A stretch of 64,000 nucleotides of DNA from Norana najaformis. Lineage: Eukaryota; Annelida; Clitellata; Crassiclitellata; Hormogastridae. Both the position numbers and the translations under genes were made by a program. Below, piece after piece: positions 155 through 63,342 of the stretch (position 1 is the first letter of the stretch; each line of letters begins with the position of its first letter). Location: positions 20,026,488 to 20,090,487 of the forward strand of contig OZ029917.1 of the NCBI GenBank assembly GCA_964023275.1, read 5' to 3'. Under the pieces are notes generated by a model, which saw only the letters and a list, made by a program, of their open reading frames with translations, did not search any database and had not been told where the DNA came from.

Positions 155-3100
155 CTCTACTCCGTCCACATCAATCGATAACGAATGCTTCACCACAAAG
201 CCAGCTATGTTCCTGAATACTTGTACTCGAGTACCGATGCCAACATACGATCCGATTCGAGACTGAAAATAGTAAACAACAGATTAAAAGTTTTATGCGC
301 AAAAAGAACTGGAAAGTATGATCATAGTAGACAATCGTTGAAATTACAGATTCCTTGCGTCGGATTAATTTCAGTTAGGCCGGTCGGCAATATCAATACG
401 TTATCAATGTTATTATTTACAAGAAAAAAGTTCCAACTGTTTGCGGTGAACGCATTCTCAACTTACCCCAAGTGTAAGACTAGCGGGAGAGCTACACAAT
501 TTTTGTGCCTGGGTAGTATGTGTTATTTCTTACTTGCTTATGCCTCAAAAGTACAGAAAATGGCTGTTATTCCCTTAAACCTTTGCTCATGTGACCAGGA
601 CAATGATGTTTCGAAATTTATGTGTTTCCAGTGAAGAAACGGGCAAATTTGCGTGTTTTCGCACAAATAAAGTAAAAAAACAACATATGAATCAATATTA
701 ACATGTATTTACACTACAGTTATACAAAAATGACCATAAAAGATTTAGAAGTGAGTAGCTTTTCGAGATTTACGCCCAATTTGATATGCAGTGGTGGCAT
801 TAGCACCTTCTGGGTCCACCAGTGGCTCCCATGTGACGTTATTCCTCCCCACAGAGAACTCGGTCCGCTGTGGCCAGTCCCGCCTGTGGTAGTGCATCTT
901 GTTGTCCCTGCTGTCTCAAAGGCAAAGATAGCAGGGAAACTTGGTAAAATCGCCTTGGAGATCCATCAGAAATGCTACCATTTTGATGTCTCCGATTACC
1001 TCCCAGCCGTACTCATCATACTGCAAGGCGTCTAGGAAGCTCTTGATGCTGTTGTAATCCTCTTCGAGGTGCACCGAGTGAGCCAGAGGAAGAGACGGGT
1101 ACTTGTTCCCGTTATGGAGCAGCACGGCTTTGAGGCTGCTGGATGAACTGTCAATGAAGATACGCCACTCGTTCGGGTTACAGTCGATTCCAATTGCCTC
1201 GAACATTGTGGCAGAAACAGAGCTCATCTTGGCTGGTGAAGAAGCTGGAAAAAGCTTGGTGACGCTTCCTCTGATCTGCGACTTGCATACTTTCATCAAC
1301 AAATTCCACTGCTTGACCCTAGACTTCAAAAGCTTGGCATTGGACTTGGTGAGACCAAGATCTCTGATCAAGTCGTTGAGTTCTTTTTCGTTGGGATAAT
1401 ATGGGTTTCTCTCCTCAGGTCGGAAATTGTAATCTGGATCTTCTTCGCTCTCTAACTTACTACTATCTTCCCAAAACGGCTGCTTTCTGTCCGTAGAAGT
1501 GGGTACAAGAAGCTCAGGGCAGTGTGGCACCGGGGCAATGCATGAAGGAAGATCGGGATATGTGGTAGCAGGTGCATTCTTGCCAGTCCGACGTTTGGAA
1601 GGATCCATCACGCAGAAGTAGCAGTTGCTTGAGTGGTCAGTGGGTTTTCGCCAAATTCTTGGCATAACAAACTTCATGGCTCTCTTTTCCCCTCTGTATC
1701 ATCCTGCAAAAGAACAAAATGAAATTGTGATCATAACAAAATAAATGTATTTATCCATGAATAAAGTGAAGGACATTGTTGCAACATAATTTATATATCA
1801 TATATTTGCCCAAACACATTGAAAATTTTTAAAACTTTCATAACATAAGATGTCGCCATCTAAGCGAGTATCAATTGTCCATCTTACCCTCCAGCGTTTT
1901 CTTGAAGTGCTCGCAAGTGAAATGAGGTGCCCAGGGTTTGTCTTGATCCCTGACAGACATGCCGAAATATGCCTTGTAGGGTTCACACATCTTAGCAGAT
2001 GCTTCCACTGTGTAATTTTCAGCTCTTGTATTGATAAATTGGCCGCAGACATAGCAAAATGCGTTTGCCGGATGCTTGGAGCCTCTTGATGCTGTATCTC
2101 AGATATGTATCCACTTAGGCAGCTACAACTAAGCTGAAGTGGTGGGCTTAAGGGCGCTGTATTTATACTGCTATTTATATTTCTGGAAGGTTCCAGTAGG
2201 TTCTCGGACGTTCTAAAATATTCTCGAAAGTTCTCGAAAGTTCTAGGAGTTACTCCAAGTTTACTGGCACTGAATTCATCGTGAACTTCTGTAAAGGTTG
2301 TAAATTTCTGAATATCACTGTCCTGGTCACAAAAGCAAAGTTTGTGGGAAATAATAGCCATTTTCTATACCTTTGAGGCACAAGCAATTAGGAAATAACA
2401 CTTACTACCCAGGAATAAAAATAAATAAAAATTTGTTACATGGTAGGCCTATTTTGTAGCCTTTTCGATCATTGATCCAAATTATCAACTATTGCCTACG
2501 TTCTGTTGAAAGTTCATAAATGCTCTTCAGAGACTACATATCGACATTTTAGTAATAAAATGTTTATATTTTAAACCAACAAACCCTACATTTGTTGCTA
2601 GAGGAACATATACTAAAGGTTTGGCAGTGCTGACTGGCTTCCGTGCTTAACCGACATAGACCTATGCCTAGTCCGGGGTTTACGACTTCAGTAGCCAACT
2701 TTGCCCAATACATCAGTTCACAGTTCGTTCATGACATTTAGGCGTAGACTCAGAATCGGACTGTGAATAAGCTGGTTCTCTAGACAGCTTTTTTGGCGAT
2801 TACGATTTCGATTAGAATCTAAACTCACTTTATCAGGTTGCTTAGATTACTAACCTTTGGTTTATCCTTCAAGTGACCATCAATTTACTACTACTACTGT
2901 ATACCACTACCACTACTACCACTACTACCACTACTACTATTATTATTATAAGAAGAAGAAGATTTTGTACAGCGCAAGTTAATATAACCAAATACACAGC
3001 AAATATGGCCCCACTGCATTTCGCCTCTGCTTGTAGGTCTTCATTCATTGATTCCAGTTACAACTCGCACTGCGTCTAGGACTTATAATCGTATATTGTA

Positions 3101-5574: not shown

Positions 5575-5935
<361 letters not shown>

Positions 5936-6033: not shown

Positions 6034-9000
6034 TCACAGATTCTCTGCTACGAATTTCGTAATTTCCCCGAAGATATAGACGGCCTCTGGAAACATTCCG
6101 ACGAAATTGGCGATACCATGAAACCCGTTTTCAGCATTGTATAATGTAACTCTGTTTTTCGCCTCTTTCAGTCTAATGCCGTAAAGCCAGCCCTCGTCTC
6201 GCAGAGGGTCGTAGTTGGCCGTAAAAACAAAGGCGTCGGGAAGGTTTTCCAGGTTATCAGCAACAAGAGGCGAGTAATATGGATTCAGCATCTTTCCTTT
6301 GATCTCATTCCACACCTTTTCGTCTCCATCCGGGTTATCCGGTTTCACAAACCCGGAAAGAAACTCTTTGGGAAGCTTTTCCAGATTCATATAAGTTTTT
6401 GCGATCGTCTGCCGGAAGCTCTTTGTCACGTGACGGTTATCCAAATAATCATCTATGTGGTCATGGTTTCCGTCAATGTACATGGCCGTGAAGAAGGTCA
6501 TCATGGCTCTGGTCAGCAGAGGACCATCGCTATTCTGTAGCATTGAAGGCAGATTGAAGTCCAGGCCTTGAGTGACGGGATATATGAGGACTTGAAGTTT
6601 GATGCGAATGGGAAATTGTTCATCGCGGAGCCTCAAGGATACGGTGGCTGCCAAATTTCCGCCAGCGCTCTCACCTATAATAAACAATGTAGACAACCTT
6701 AACGGGCCCCTATATTGACAAAAACCAGCTCCATATTGCATATAACGTCAAACTCTAGAAGAAAATTTAGCATAGGAGTGAGTTAGCGAGTGCGTGAGTG
6801 AAAGATTAAGGTCTTTTGCTATAGCTTACATAAGCCTACACGAACGAGATCGTTTATGCGTTAATACAAATAAATTAATTCTTACCAGCCACGGCAACTC
6901 GTTTCGGATCTACGTTAAAATCTGCAGCATTCTTCAGAAAGTACTTTGTTGCAGTGGTACAGTCGTCTATGGCGGCTGGAAAGGGAAACTCTGGAGCCAT
7001 TCGATACCTGAAAGATTTCGACCAATCAGCAATGAGGTTAACTCATGGGTACACCGGACTGGAAAGTCTTGGGTAGAGAAATGTTCAAGCTAAAAATATA
7101 CTCCCATTATGACACCTAATGAGATAGACTAACGTTAATACACCCACTGTCGTAAAGCTGCATATAATCTTCTGAAAAGCACTAAAGAAAAGGAGGTCAT
7201 TGTGGGCTAAAGCTAGACATCAATGTGACTTTTTAGCGGCGTGATACAAAATGAATTTTCCATAGATGAATCTATATGCTGATGCTTGCCATAAAAACTA
7301 CATCAGGGATGATTGCTTTTTAGAGCTCTAAAAAGGCACTATATAAATGATGCACTGTAATAATTAAGAATGAACGAAGGCTGAAAAGATTAATATTGTC
7401 TGCGGTTATAGCGCCATGAAAGTCGTGTTAATTGTTTGATAAGTTGAGAGTCATGATAATAGAACAGATTTCTTACTCCACTGAAGCAACAACAGTTTTG
7501 GTTTCTTTGCACAGCTGCTTCGTTATTGAATCAACAGAATCTGGAAAACATTTTATCAGAACAGTATATATACAGTATAGTAAATGATTTCGATATGGGA
7601 AATGCCGAGGACATTGTCTAAAACATTTACAGTTTATATGTTAGTGTTGTGATTTACCGATCGTTAGTCCGTATGTCTAATTTACCCATTCGCTTAGGCT
7701 TTTGCCCTTTGGCTACTTATGTGCGTAGATGTGATATTTAACATGTACACATATTAAAAGGCGTCTCAACCTGAAATAGGGAGTTACGCACGATGTGTCA
7801 TAGAAATTTCAGAAGGGAAAGGAAAATCGCTTTTAGGAGAAACAAAAATTCCGAGGCATTAGTCTAAAAGGCGAATGGTCTTAATGAGGCCGTATATTCA
7901 TGACGTGGAAAGTAGAAGAAAAATGTCATCTAAATTCTGAAAGACTAAAACGTTATCAGCGTTTTTCATAGTTATTATATGAGGCAATGCTATTAATTTA
8001 TATAACCTCCCAGAATTTTTTCAGGATACGCATCGGTGTCTATAATAATAGAAAGTGAAAATGATCTAACCCCAGTACTTAAAGCTATGCATTTGCTTCC
8101 TGTTAGGCAAAGCATATATTTCAAATTGGGACTTATATTTTATAAAATATATCGAATTCTGGACAACCACAATATTTAAACTCAGTCCTCATCCTCACAC
8201 TTATTATTCTACCAGGTCATCTGATTGCATTTATCTGGTTTTATATAAAACTATAACTATTTTTGGTGATCGAGCTTTTTCGGTAGTTGGACCTATAGTT
8301 TGGATCTCTCTTCCTGCATCCGTTCGTTCTGCTCAATGTCTAACGTCGTTTCAGTCTCACTTAAGATTCATCGTTATCAATTGGTTATCCACCTTACGCT
8401 GCCTCTCTGTTTCAGTGGAAAGACTTTCTGGATCGCGGCTTGGAGTTTTTGAGCCATCGGTTGATGTCTCGTGCTATAGACAACGGTTTCATAGACGTTA
8501 CTAATTAATTAATCTAACATATAAGGTATGAGATATAAGGATATAAGATATATGGCCTCTTGAGTTATAACTAATTGTAAAATAGCCCGTTCATGACTTT
8601 AAAATATAGTCTTTGTATAAAGTTTGCATATGTTTACTAACCAATGCTACCGTAAGTCCAGCCTCCGCCGTGGTAATACACGATTCCCGGTAATGTTTCG
8701 TTAAGTACATCCGAAGGCTGGTATATTCTAACTGGGATTCCATCGAAAAGCATTTCACGAGTCTATAACAGCCACAAAAATGATATGGATCGATAGAGTC
8801 ATTATTGCACGAGGTTTTAAGATTTTCTAACATTCTGCGCTTGAAGCAAACGAATCAAACGAGACAGTGTTGACCAACAATAATTAATTAACAATTAAAA
8901 CAGACCCCTTATTGCTTAAGATCATTTTACCGAGAAACTCTGGTACTCAGTTGATTCGCGTATGGAGGCCTATTTATGCAGCAGTATGATAACAATTTGC

Positions 9001-25477: not shown

Positions 25478-25762
25478 GCGTATTAATATATATATATATA
25501 TATGTATGTATGTATGTATGAATGTATGTATGAATGTATGTATGTATGTGTGTATGTATGTATGTATGCATGTATGTATGTATGCATGTATGTATGTATG
25601 TATGCATACTTGTATGTATGTATGCATGTATGTATGTATGTATGTATGTATATATGTATGTATGTATGCTTGTATACATGTATGTATGTATATATATGTA
25701 TGTATGTATGTATCTATGTATGTATGTTTCTATGTGTGTGTATGAATGAATGTATGTAGAGA
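25478..25762. repeat. TATG tetranucleotide microsatellite
   Basis: An AT run followed by about 60 TATG/TATGCATG units with scattered changes. It starts about 75 bp upstream of the spermidine synthase start codon and abuts a SINE on its right side. The Met-Tyr-Val-Cys and Ile-His-Thr-Tyr open frames here are not genes. Confidence 0.95.
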
Positions 25763-61708: not shown

Positions 61709-63342
61709 TCAAGTGGCTTTTTCTCGAAGATGTATGCGCCTGTGCTTGTGATACGAAGCAGACCTTGAAAATGACATGGCACAATACTCGCAAATATATG
61801 GTTTCTCACCAGTGTGTGAACGCTGATGCAAGATAAGCCCCGAAGCCTTTTTGTAGCACTTCAGGCACACTTCACACTGGTAGACCTTAACTTTTCGATG
61901 CACGTTCACGTGTCGGTTCAGTTCAAGAACTTTTGCAAATTCAGCACCACAATCTCTGCACTTAAAGTGCTTTGACTCCACGAGAGCAAAACTGAAATGA
62001 TGTTTGATTTCCTCGGTAGATGAAAATTTTTCAAGGCAGACATAGCAGTGAAAATCTTTCTCATAACAGCCTAGTCTTTCACGGTGACGAGCAAGGTGAC
62101 TGGATCGTGTGAAGGACCGACCACACGTCGTGCACTGGTGAGGCTTCTCTCCAGTGTGTGTCCGACCGTGTCGATGCAGATGCGAGCGTCGGCCAAACCG
62201 GGCACCACAGATGTCGCACATGAACGTTCGGTCGCCTGTGTGTATCCTAGCATGCGATGTTAAACTTGGATTATTTATGAAGCCTTTGCCACACGTCTCA
62301 CACTTGAAAGGCCTGTCGGTCGTGGTGTTGTGACTCCAGGCATGCTTCCTGAGACTATCGTGGTCACGAAATCGCTTCCCGCAGATGTCACAGCACTCCG
62401 GTTTCTCACCAGTGTGGCAAAGCTGGTGACGTTTGAGGTGACTCCGACGTCCGAATGCCTTCTCACATACGCTGCACTTGTGATGCAGTCCAGAGTGTGC
62501 ACGGAAATGATTATGCAGAGTACTTCGCTGCCTGAAAAGTTCACTGCACACCGGACATTGGTAAGGTTTTTCACCAGTGTGTACACGTATGTGGGCACGG
62601 AGGCTGGTTGAAAGACGAAAAGCTTTTGTGCAGTATTCGCATTTGTAGGGTTTTTCACCCGTATGAACACGAAGGTGACGAATCAGATGACTAGGTTTCG
62701 GATAAACCTGATTGCAAACTTGGCATATGTGCTGCTTTCTTGCTTGCTTTTTTTGTTTCAGTTTTCCACTTCTTCTCCCTTGTCTAGAACGTTTAGGTTG
62801 TAAACATTTTTTTATGTTCACCCCTGCACATAAAAAATCAACACAGTTTATTTTAAAGCTATAAAATAAAAGCCTCATACCCTTCAAATGTTTAAATGCT
62901 TTATGTTTTCTAATACCACTAATCTAATGTGAAGCTTTCAAAGAACGGGTCTTCCAGTGACAGAAGGAAAAAGAAAAAGAAAAGGAATTATTAGGATACA
63001 ATATGCTGTTAAATATACCCAAAAGAATTTTTTAGTTAAAATTTTAGCACATTGAGAATTTGCAGTTTTCTGTTTTTCAATGTTTATTGAGTAAATATCT
63101 GAAGCAGAATTTATTTTATTTATAATCCTGTCTGAACAGTTTCAACTTGCAGTAGTCACATTGTTTGAAAAAATTTCATTTCCACACAGTACTGACAACA
63201 ATGTTAAGAAGATGGATCTGATAATTGTTAAGAAGAAGATAACTATAAGAATTCAGTGATAATTCAGATCAGTACAAAATGACTAAATTTACCCAAGTTA
63301 CTCTTATCTTCTTCAGAACAGTCAAGGTATTCAACGCCAAGC
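61709..63342 (-). CDS. C2H2 zinc-finger protein, last two exons (5' end outside window)
   Basis: The last exon is 62823-61709 with a TGTGCAG acceptor. A preceding exon, 63342-63293 (LGVEYLDCSEEDKSNL), joins in phase (G|GG) to VNIKKCLQPKRSRQGRRSGK. After this basic stretch come about twelve C2H2 fingers to the C terminus, many joined by TGEKP linkers: HICQVC, YKCEYC, YQCPVC, HKCSVC, ECCDIC, FKCETC, FMCDIC, HQCTTC, FHCYVC, FKCRDC, YQCEVC and YICEYC. The eighth (HQCTTC...HLARHRERLGC) has Cys in place of the last His, and the ninth (FHCYVC...) is irregular. Such proteins bind DNA in the nucleus and usually regulate transcription. No KRAB or other effector domain is in the visible part. The orthologue is not identified. 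More 5' exons lie beyond 64000. Confidence 0.9.

Follow-up and report, generated by a model that had tools for sequence, protein, structure and literature searches.

What is the broken gene framed by inverted repeats in this part of the Norana najaformis genome? The stretch that we analysed, here called the window, is 64,000 nucleotides long and lies on contig 5 of a 608-Mb genome in 17 contigs. A preliminary description of it had recognized inverted ends of about 125 bp around a decayed multicopy gene and had reasoned that, if other copies carry the same ends, the gene family would be the cargo or the transposase of a terminal-inverted-repeat (TIR) transposon. This reasoning holds: constant ends recur, a 3-bp target-site duplication (TSD) accompanies them, and the protein combines D-D-E residues with C(2)C and H(4)H motifs. 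The region 478-2445 is an old and inactivated copy, shortened by an internal deletion, of a cut-and-paste DNA transposon that belongs to what we call lineage 1. Beyond the earlier description we recognize the true ends, a heat-shock array and a second lineage that looks young, the deeper finding being the heat-shock promoter. We consider it very probable that most of the long heat-shock elements (HSEs) of this genome were supplied by a CACTA-like transposon whose transposase promoter is driven by HSF and, as we infer, induced by heat.

Element ends and dispersed copies

The inverted repeats of the window element are real. Their arms at 499-620 and 2301-2422 span 122 nt, are 84% complementary (BLAST E 4e-32) and have 1680 nt between them. 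The identical 11-base tips noted earlier also exist, as CCTGGGTAGTA is found exactly at 508-518 (+) and 2403-2413 (-), but they are not the termini. When 39 further copies and the window copy were fetched with their flanks and compared for their ends, conservation ran on outward of the tips. It covers about 23 bp more at the left end, or 30 in the window copy, and about 33 bp more at the right end, and the copies are alike in this outer sequence (left ...CACTAAGTAACACAATTTTTGTGCCTGGG, right ...CACCGTGTAACAAATTTTTATTTATTTTTTGTTCCTGGG). The tip at 508 is internal, and because conserved sequence extends beyond the tips the element spans about 478-2445, matching the outer ends of other copies, CACTAAGTAACA... 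(window position ~478) and ...TGTTACACGGTG (~2445). The left TIR (478..640, plus strand) lies on the C-terminal side of the gene and reads inwards from an eroded tip GACTAG, for which the family has CACTAAG and the copies CACTAAGTAACACAATTTTTGTGCCTGGGTA. On the promoter side, the right TIR (2285..2445, minus strand) has the outer tip CATGGTA for CACGGTG in the family (plus strand). Full-length lineage-1 relatives measure about 2.4-2.5 kb, and their imperfect TIRs of roughly 150 bp end in CAC..GTG.

Are these ends common to other copies? A BLAST search of the 64-kb window against itself found no further copy of the element inside it; many relatives exist elsewhere in the genome. A genome search with the element, in which the best 40 of 442 first-look candidates were scored, returned 136 matching pieces, the long ones mostly 82-90% identical, which bears out the multicopy nature of a gene whose frame is broken in the window. 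Allowing up to 3 mismatches, the pattern of the left end was found at 107 places genome-wide and that of the right end at 53, with 0 for the reversed controls of both. Dispersed copies thus share constant inverted ends.

Individual loci add some detail. About 12 kb from the window copy lies a lineage-1 copy (L013, C5:20011932-20014895) that is 89% identical to it over 1.4 kb, against about 83-85% for other long matches. Two lineage-1 copies on different contigs (L043 on C4 and L044 on C13) have nearly the same left flank, which points to a segmental duplication rather than two insertions. Four loci (L049, L050, L056 and L069) show a perfect or near-perfect left end followed by only 28-60 bp of homology; these may be truncated copies or else short non-autonomous relatives with the same end. 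In L026, a 522-aa open frame is fused behind the transposase remnant and by eye looks like the reverse transcriptase and RNase H of an inserted non-LTR element. The window itself also holds two tetranucleotide arrays, CAGG at 5718-5902 (46 units) and TATG at 25489-25758 (68 units), and two minus-strand frames that by eye resemble a C2H2 zinc-finger protein (61709-62923) and an arylacetamide-deacetylase-like hydrolase (6034-6747).

The TSDs are 3 bp long and mostly TWA. Among lineage-1 copies with end scores of at least 33 on the left and 44 on the right, thresholds chosen after the flanks had been seen, identical 3-bp flanks occur in 9 of 24 versus 5.0 in shuffled pairs (P=0.02), a weak signal and a modest excess because TWA is preferred on both sides and this preference alone yields matches. 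The nine triplets are TAA (five), TTA (three) and ATA (one). This count includes L059 and L060 with extrapolated or by-eye boundaries and leaves out sub-threshold copies, one-ended copies, and L055 and L082, whose right end was not found. Flank matches of 2, 4 or 5 bp did not rise above shuffles in the 24 copies; a 2-bp TA duplication, which by eye had fitted L017 and L031, was discarded on this count, with the CAC boundary as the only one tested. The window copy has no TSD (TAA left, GGC right). What settles the length at 3 bp is the sister lineage 2 described below, where the duplication is exact in six of seven copies (four TTA, one TAA, one TTT) and agrees in two of three bases in the remaining one, a count from which 3 of 10 copies are omitted, one end not having been found.

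The transposase gene and its sister lineage

Can we recognize the protein that is encoded between the ends? The gene runs on the minus strand. Its exon 1 remnant (1888..2097, CYVCG...DQDKPWAPH) has lost the start codon and ends in a GGTAAG that most of the copies inspected retain. A putative intron, presumably spliced, reads GTAAG...TTTTGCAG (also given as GTAAG...GCAG) and spans 1704..1887; it is missing in lineage 2. The exon 2 remnant (745..1703) retains D1 (FIDSS), D2 (GDIK) and CYLC and is truncated, with frameshifts and two in-frame TGA codons at tryptophan positions. At the deletion junction 774..775, 466 bp are absent in comparison with L009, or about 430-490 bp in comparison with others, and the C-terminal part is gone. 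None of the seven full copies compared shares this deletion, and judged by position it would have removed the region of the catalytic E. With about 466 bp missing and its frame broken, the window copy is dead.

In the copies the start codon stands in ATGGCATCAAGAGGC or a close variant, 70-82 bp downstream of the TATAAATA/array promoter; of 27 aligned copies 23 retain this ATG, and the window copy has lost it (at ~2097). The ATG inside the repeat, which the preliminary description had given as the start of a reading frame, is present at 2361, but it lies upstream of the TATA boxes and is not the transposase start, a different one being kept in the copies.

No intact frame was found among the fetched lineage-1 copies, the longest family frame being 412 aa (L045). 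A complete protein is provided by lineage 2. One such element (CACTGGTCAACA..., 2.35 kb, with a single 565-aa ORF, P0001) is inserted within a lineage-1 copy (L034/L088). This nested element is 2351 bp long, runs from CACTGGTCAACATAG to TTGTCCAGTA with TAA on both sides, and has the ends CACTGG...CCAGTA, the last base being A where others have G. The place of insertion is uninterrupted in four lineage-1 copies (the window copy, L016, L017 and L022). We retrieved the end regions of ten more lineage-2 copies; the seven in which both ends were found are 2325-2354 bp long.

The intact 565-aa lineage-2 transposase (L088:192-1886, minus strand, C2:7395791-7397485) lies between the ends of its element. 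The protein carries D264, D318 and either E513 or E516; C337xxC340 and H494x4H499 stand between the second D and E. It is 38.5% identical to the window remnant over 309 columns. These D-D-E, C(2)C and H(4)H residues are also the commonest ones in lineage-1 copies: among the copies that extend over the respective position, E513 is found in 40 of 46, H494 in 36 of 45 and H499 in 34 of 44, where five duplicate loci, the window and matches above 90% identity (lineage 2) are excluded. A separate first tally still includes the duplicates, and the near-duplicate pairs L033/L035 and L043/L044 are left in both. Because of this arrangement the minus-strand gene reads as one for a DDE-type transposase and not as cargo, and the core of the enzyme may adopt an RNase H-like fold.

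Searches by sequence gave no Pfam match beyond chance and no PDB relative for the protein, and no paper on its motifs was found in the literature. Relatives of the element were found neither in viral contigs nor in prokaryote genome contigs nor in phages, and an Rfam search of the window returned nothing relevant. The protein family is presumably widespread in other animals as 'uncharacterized protein'. The present results would identify a family with no Pfam or PDB match here as the transposase of an element whose ends and target duplication are defined, and this would allow copies in other genomes to be delimited rather than annotated as host genes.

How old are the two lineages? In a six-frame search with P0001, the 77 best-scored of 6565 first-look candidates, the query's own place included, are 98-100% identical and cover the whole or nearly the whole protein; the number of candidates is not a copy count. 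Among these best-scoring places 64 of 77 have no internal stop, a share that does not translate into a genome-wide rate since only the best-scoring places are included. An intact ORF between the ends accordingly exists in lineage 2 but in none of the fetched lineage-1 copies. Going by these sequences, lineage 2 is young, the apparent outcome of a very recent burst in this genome. Lineage 1 is older, because in the promoter flanks its copies differ by about 7% from the majority sequence.

The heat-shock element array of the promoter

How might such a gene be switched on? The right TIR is separated from the TATA box by an array of about 13 alternating nGAAn/nTTCn units (2181..2244, minus strand), in which GAA and TTC alternate every 5 bp. 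It is directly adjoined by the TATA boxes TATAAATA (2160..2179, minus strand, at 2179-2172 and 2167-2160). A heat-shock promoter is characterized by at least three nGAAn units that follow one another in alternating orientation close to a TATA box, and the array presents this configuration. The only perfect 3-unit HSEs of the window are four overlapping ones that start at 2181, 2221, 2226 and 2231, all in the array. These four alone are not special; simulated windows contained at least one in 117 of 200 cases (mean 0.83, maximum 4). Exceptional are only the longer scores: the array attains 38 of 42 in a 14-unit scan, and its 5-, 8- and 14-unit scores were unreached in 200 first-order Markov windows.

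Among the copies, all 29 with a full promoter (window included) have at least one perfect 3-unit HSE, 23 have a perfect 5-unit stretch and 28 have TATAAA; the set omits the partial promoters of L018, L029, L079, L081, L085 and L087 as well as loci with no promoter match. Since the copies were picked by their similarity to the window element, this retention describes conservation among copies and not an independent sample. The majority sequence of 28 copies matches 38 of 39 GAA/TTC core letters, and its spacers vary from unit to unit. By eye, a whole 10-bp unit has been gained in L042 and lost in L015, L017, L019, L022 and L041, six of 29 promoters in which the 5-bp phase is kept, as it is not in L014 (-8 bp). 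Divergence among copies amounts to 5.3% in HSE cores and 7.0% in spacers (L032 left out); the cores thus do not evolve clearly more slowly, and the copies show no sign of having been under selection after their dispersal.

The array also recurs at the genomic scale. A perfect six-unit HSE is present at 73 positions in the 608-Mb genome and at 0 in the reversed control. Of the 73, the 50 that were listed make up 44 separate arrays. Each of these 50 agrees with the element in at least 7 of 10 spacer bases, and 43 agree in at least 9; from 2000 random spacer sets, 61 reach 7 and none reaches 9. Because of these common spacer bases, the 50 listed long perfect HSEs look like pieces of the lineage-1 transposon.

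Does the same hold for lineage 2? In the one promoter looked at (L088), no TTCnnGAA occurs in 450 bp, so that control by heat does not extend to the whole family. This promoter has TGACGTCA 140 bp and TATATAAA 123 bp before the start codon, with the near copies TGACGTAA and TTACGTCA just before TATATAAA. We take TGACGTCA beside the TATA box to be a CRE/ATF-type site.

The unusual length of the heat-shock switch on its transposase gene makes it probable that the lineage-1 transposon was activated by heat or a similar stress and scattered this switch through the genome. Under proteotoxic or heat stress, HSF1 trimers are predicted to bind the ~13-unit array next to the TATA box and would turn on the transposase gene. 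The N-terminal cysteine-rich domain of the enzyme may recognize the ends by binding subterminal repeats, the RNase H-like DDE core with its C(2)C/H(4)H insertion would cut at CAC/GTG, and the element would then insert at TWA; deleted copies could be mobilised in trans. More tentatively, and doubtful in its full extent, an animal CACTA-like transposon might have captured or evolved a full heat-shock promoter, burst under stress and become the source of nearly all long HSEs. The host would have gained a transposon-built layer of heat-responsive sites, and the sister with its CRE/ATF-like promoter would still be young and probably mobile.

Alternative readings and relation to known systems

Could the GAA/TTC array be a neutral 10-bp minisatellite that resembles HSEs, within an unremarkable CACTA-like element that is transcribed from a conventional TATA promoter? 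The six promoters that differ by one whole unit hint at growth as a 10-bp tandem repeat, cores and spacers diverged to a similar degree after insertion, and the single lineage-2 promoter has no array. However, the spacers vary between units where the core stays nearly perfect, the array sits directly against TATAAATA at a short distance from the start codon, and the six unit changes hold the 5-bp phase, L014 being the exception. We therefore regard a neutral origin as improbable. That a host gene merely became enclosed by a local inverted duplication, with no mobile element at all, is a reading whose sole support is the window copy, which has no TSD. It is refuted by the dispersed copies with the same ends: their recurrence at 107 and 53 places excludes that the ends are found once, and the 3-bp TSDs and the nested insertion, seen next to uninterrupted copies, leave this reading a practically negligible probability.

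To which transposons is the element related? According to the part of PMC12730594 consulted, EnSpm elements have CAC..GTG ends with 3-bp TSDs, and the CMCT clade has C(2)C and H(3-4)H between the second D and E. The elements described here end in 5'-CAC..GTG-3' with a 3-bp TSD, and C(2)C and H(3-4)H stand at this place in P0001 and, by the histidine counts given above, in lineage 1. Ends, duplication length and DDE motifs fit EnSpm/CACTA-like (CMCT) transposons, an assignment made by features and not by a tree. There are differences, however: the lineage-1 right end is CACCG and not CACTA, the elements are small single-protein ones of about 2.4 kb, and they have a strong TWA target preference and no detectable Pfam similarity. 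It is conceivable, if doubtful, that their place is not in EnSpm/CACTA proper but in a different superfamily that makes 3-bp duplications (PIF/Harbinger-like), or in a lineage close to CNEST/ESTA. The TWA preference would suit this placement, canonical Harbinger elements are also described with 3-bp TSDs (PMC12730594), and CNEST, with CACGG ends, is reported to group with unclassified animal transposases (PMC12810828). It is opposed by the combination of CAC..GTG with 3-bp TSDs and of C(2)C with H(3-4)H, the features named for EnSpm and CMCT in the excerpt of PMC12730594, and for CNEST by its 2-bp TA duplications (PMC12810828). Kolobok, described with a TTAA target duplication and RR (purine) terminal bases (PMC6004289), was dismissed, as the duplications here are of 3 bp and the ends begin with CAC.

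With the EnSpm/CACTA-like reading, CNIRT6 and CNEST of Cryptococcus neoformans can be compared by their description: they are of the CMC type, their ends are CACTG or CACGG, 3-bp TSDs are described for CNIRT6, and both make more insertions at 37 C (PMC12810828). CNEST differs from the elements here by its TA duplications, and in the available text HSEs are noted for LTR retrotransposons of this fungus, not for CMC elements (PMC12810828). No report of an HSE array in a cut-and-paste transposase promoter was found in the literature searched (titles and abstract starts; subscription journals and Repbase lay outside the scope).

If our reading is right, there is a second kind of DNA transposon, beside the Helitrons of Caenorhabditis, with an HSE array in its transposase promoter, and a genome whose long perfect HSEs, among those listed, all look transposon-borne. 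That stress wakes transposons through host stress factors is an old idea, now directly testable in a non-model animal. ONSEN is a Copia-type retrotransposon of a plant.

Like the element proposed here, ONSEN of Arabidopsis is a mobile element transcribed under heat stress (PMC6927752). The closest functional precedent, as far as the text of PMC6927752 describes it, is Helitron1_CE of Caenorhabditis, whose Rep-helicase gene promoter has 14 HSEs in one copy, is bound by HSF-1 and is up-regulated by heat. It is a rolling-circle Rep-helicase Helitron and not a cut-and-paste TIR element, and binding and induction were measured there whereas we infer them here. What the two have in common is that a DNA transposon carries an HSE-rich promoter for its own transposase and that its HSEs are spread in the genome.
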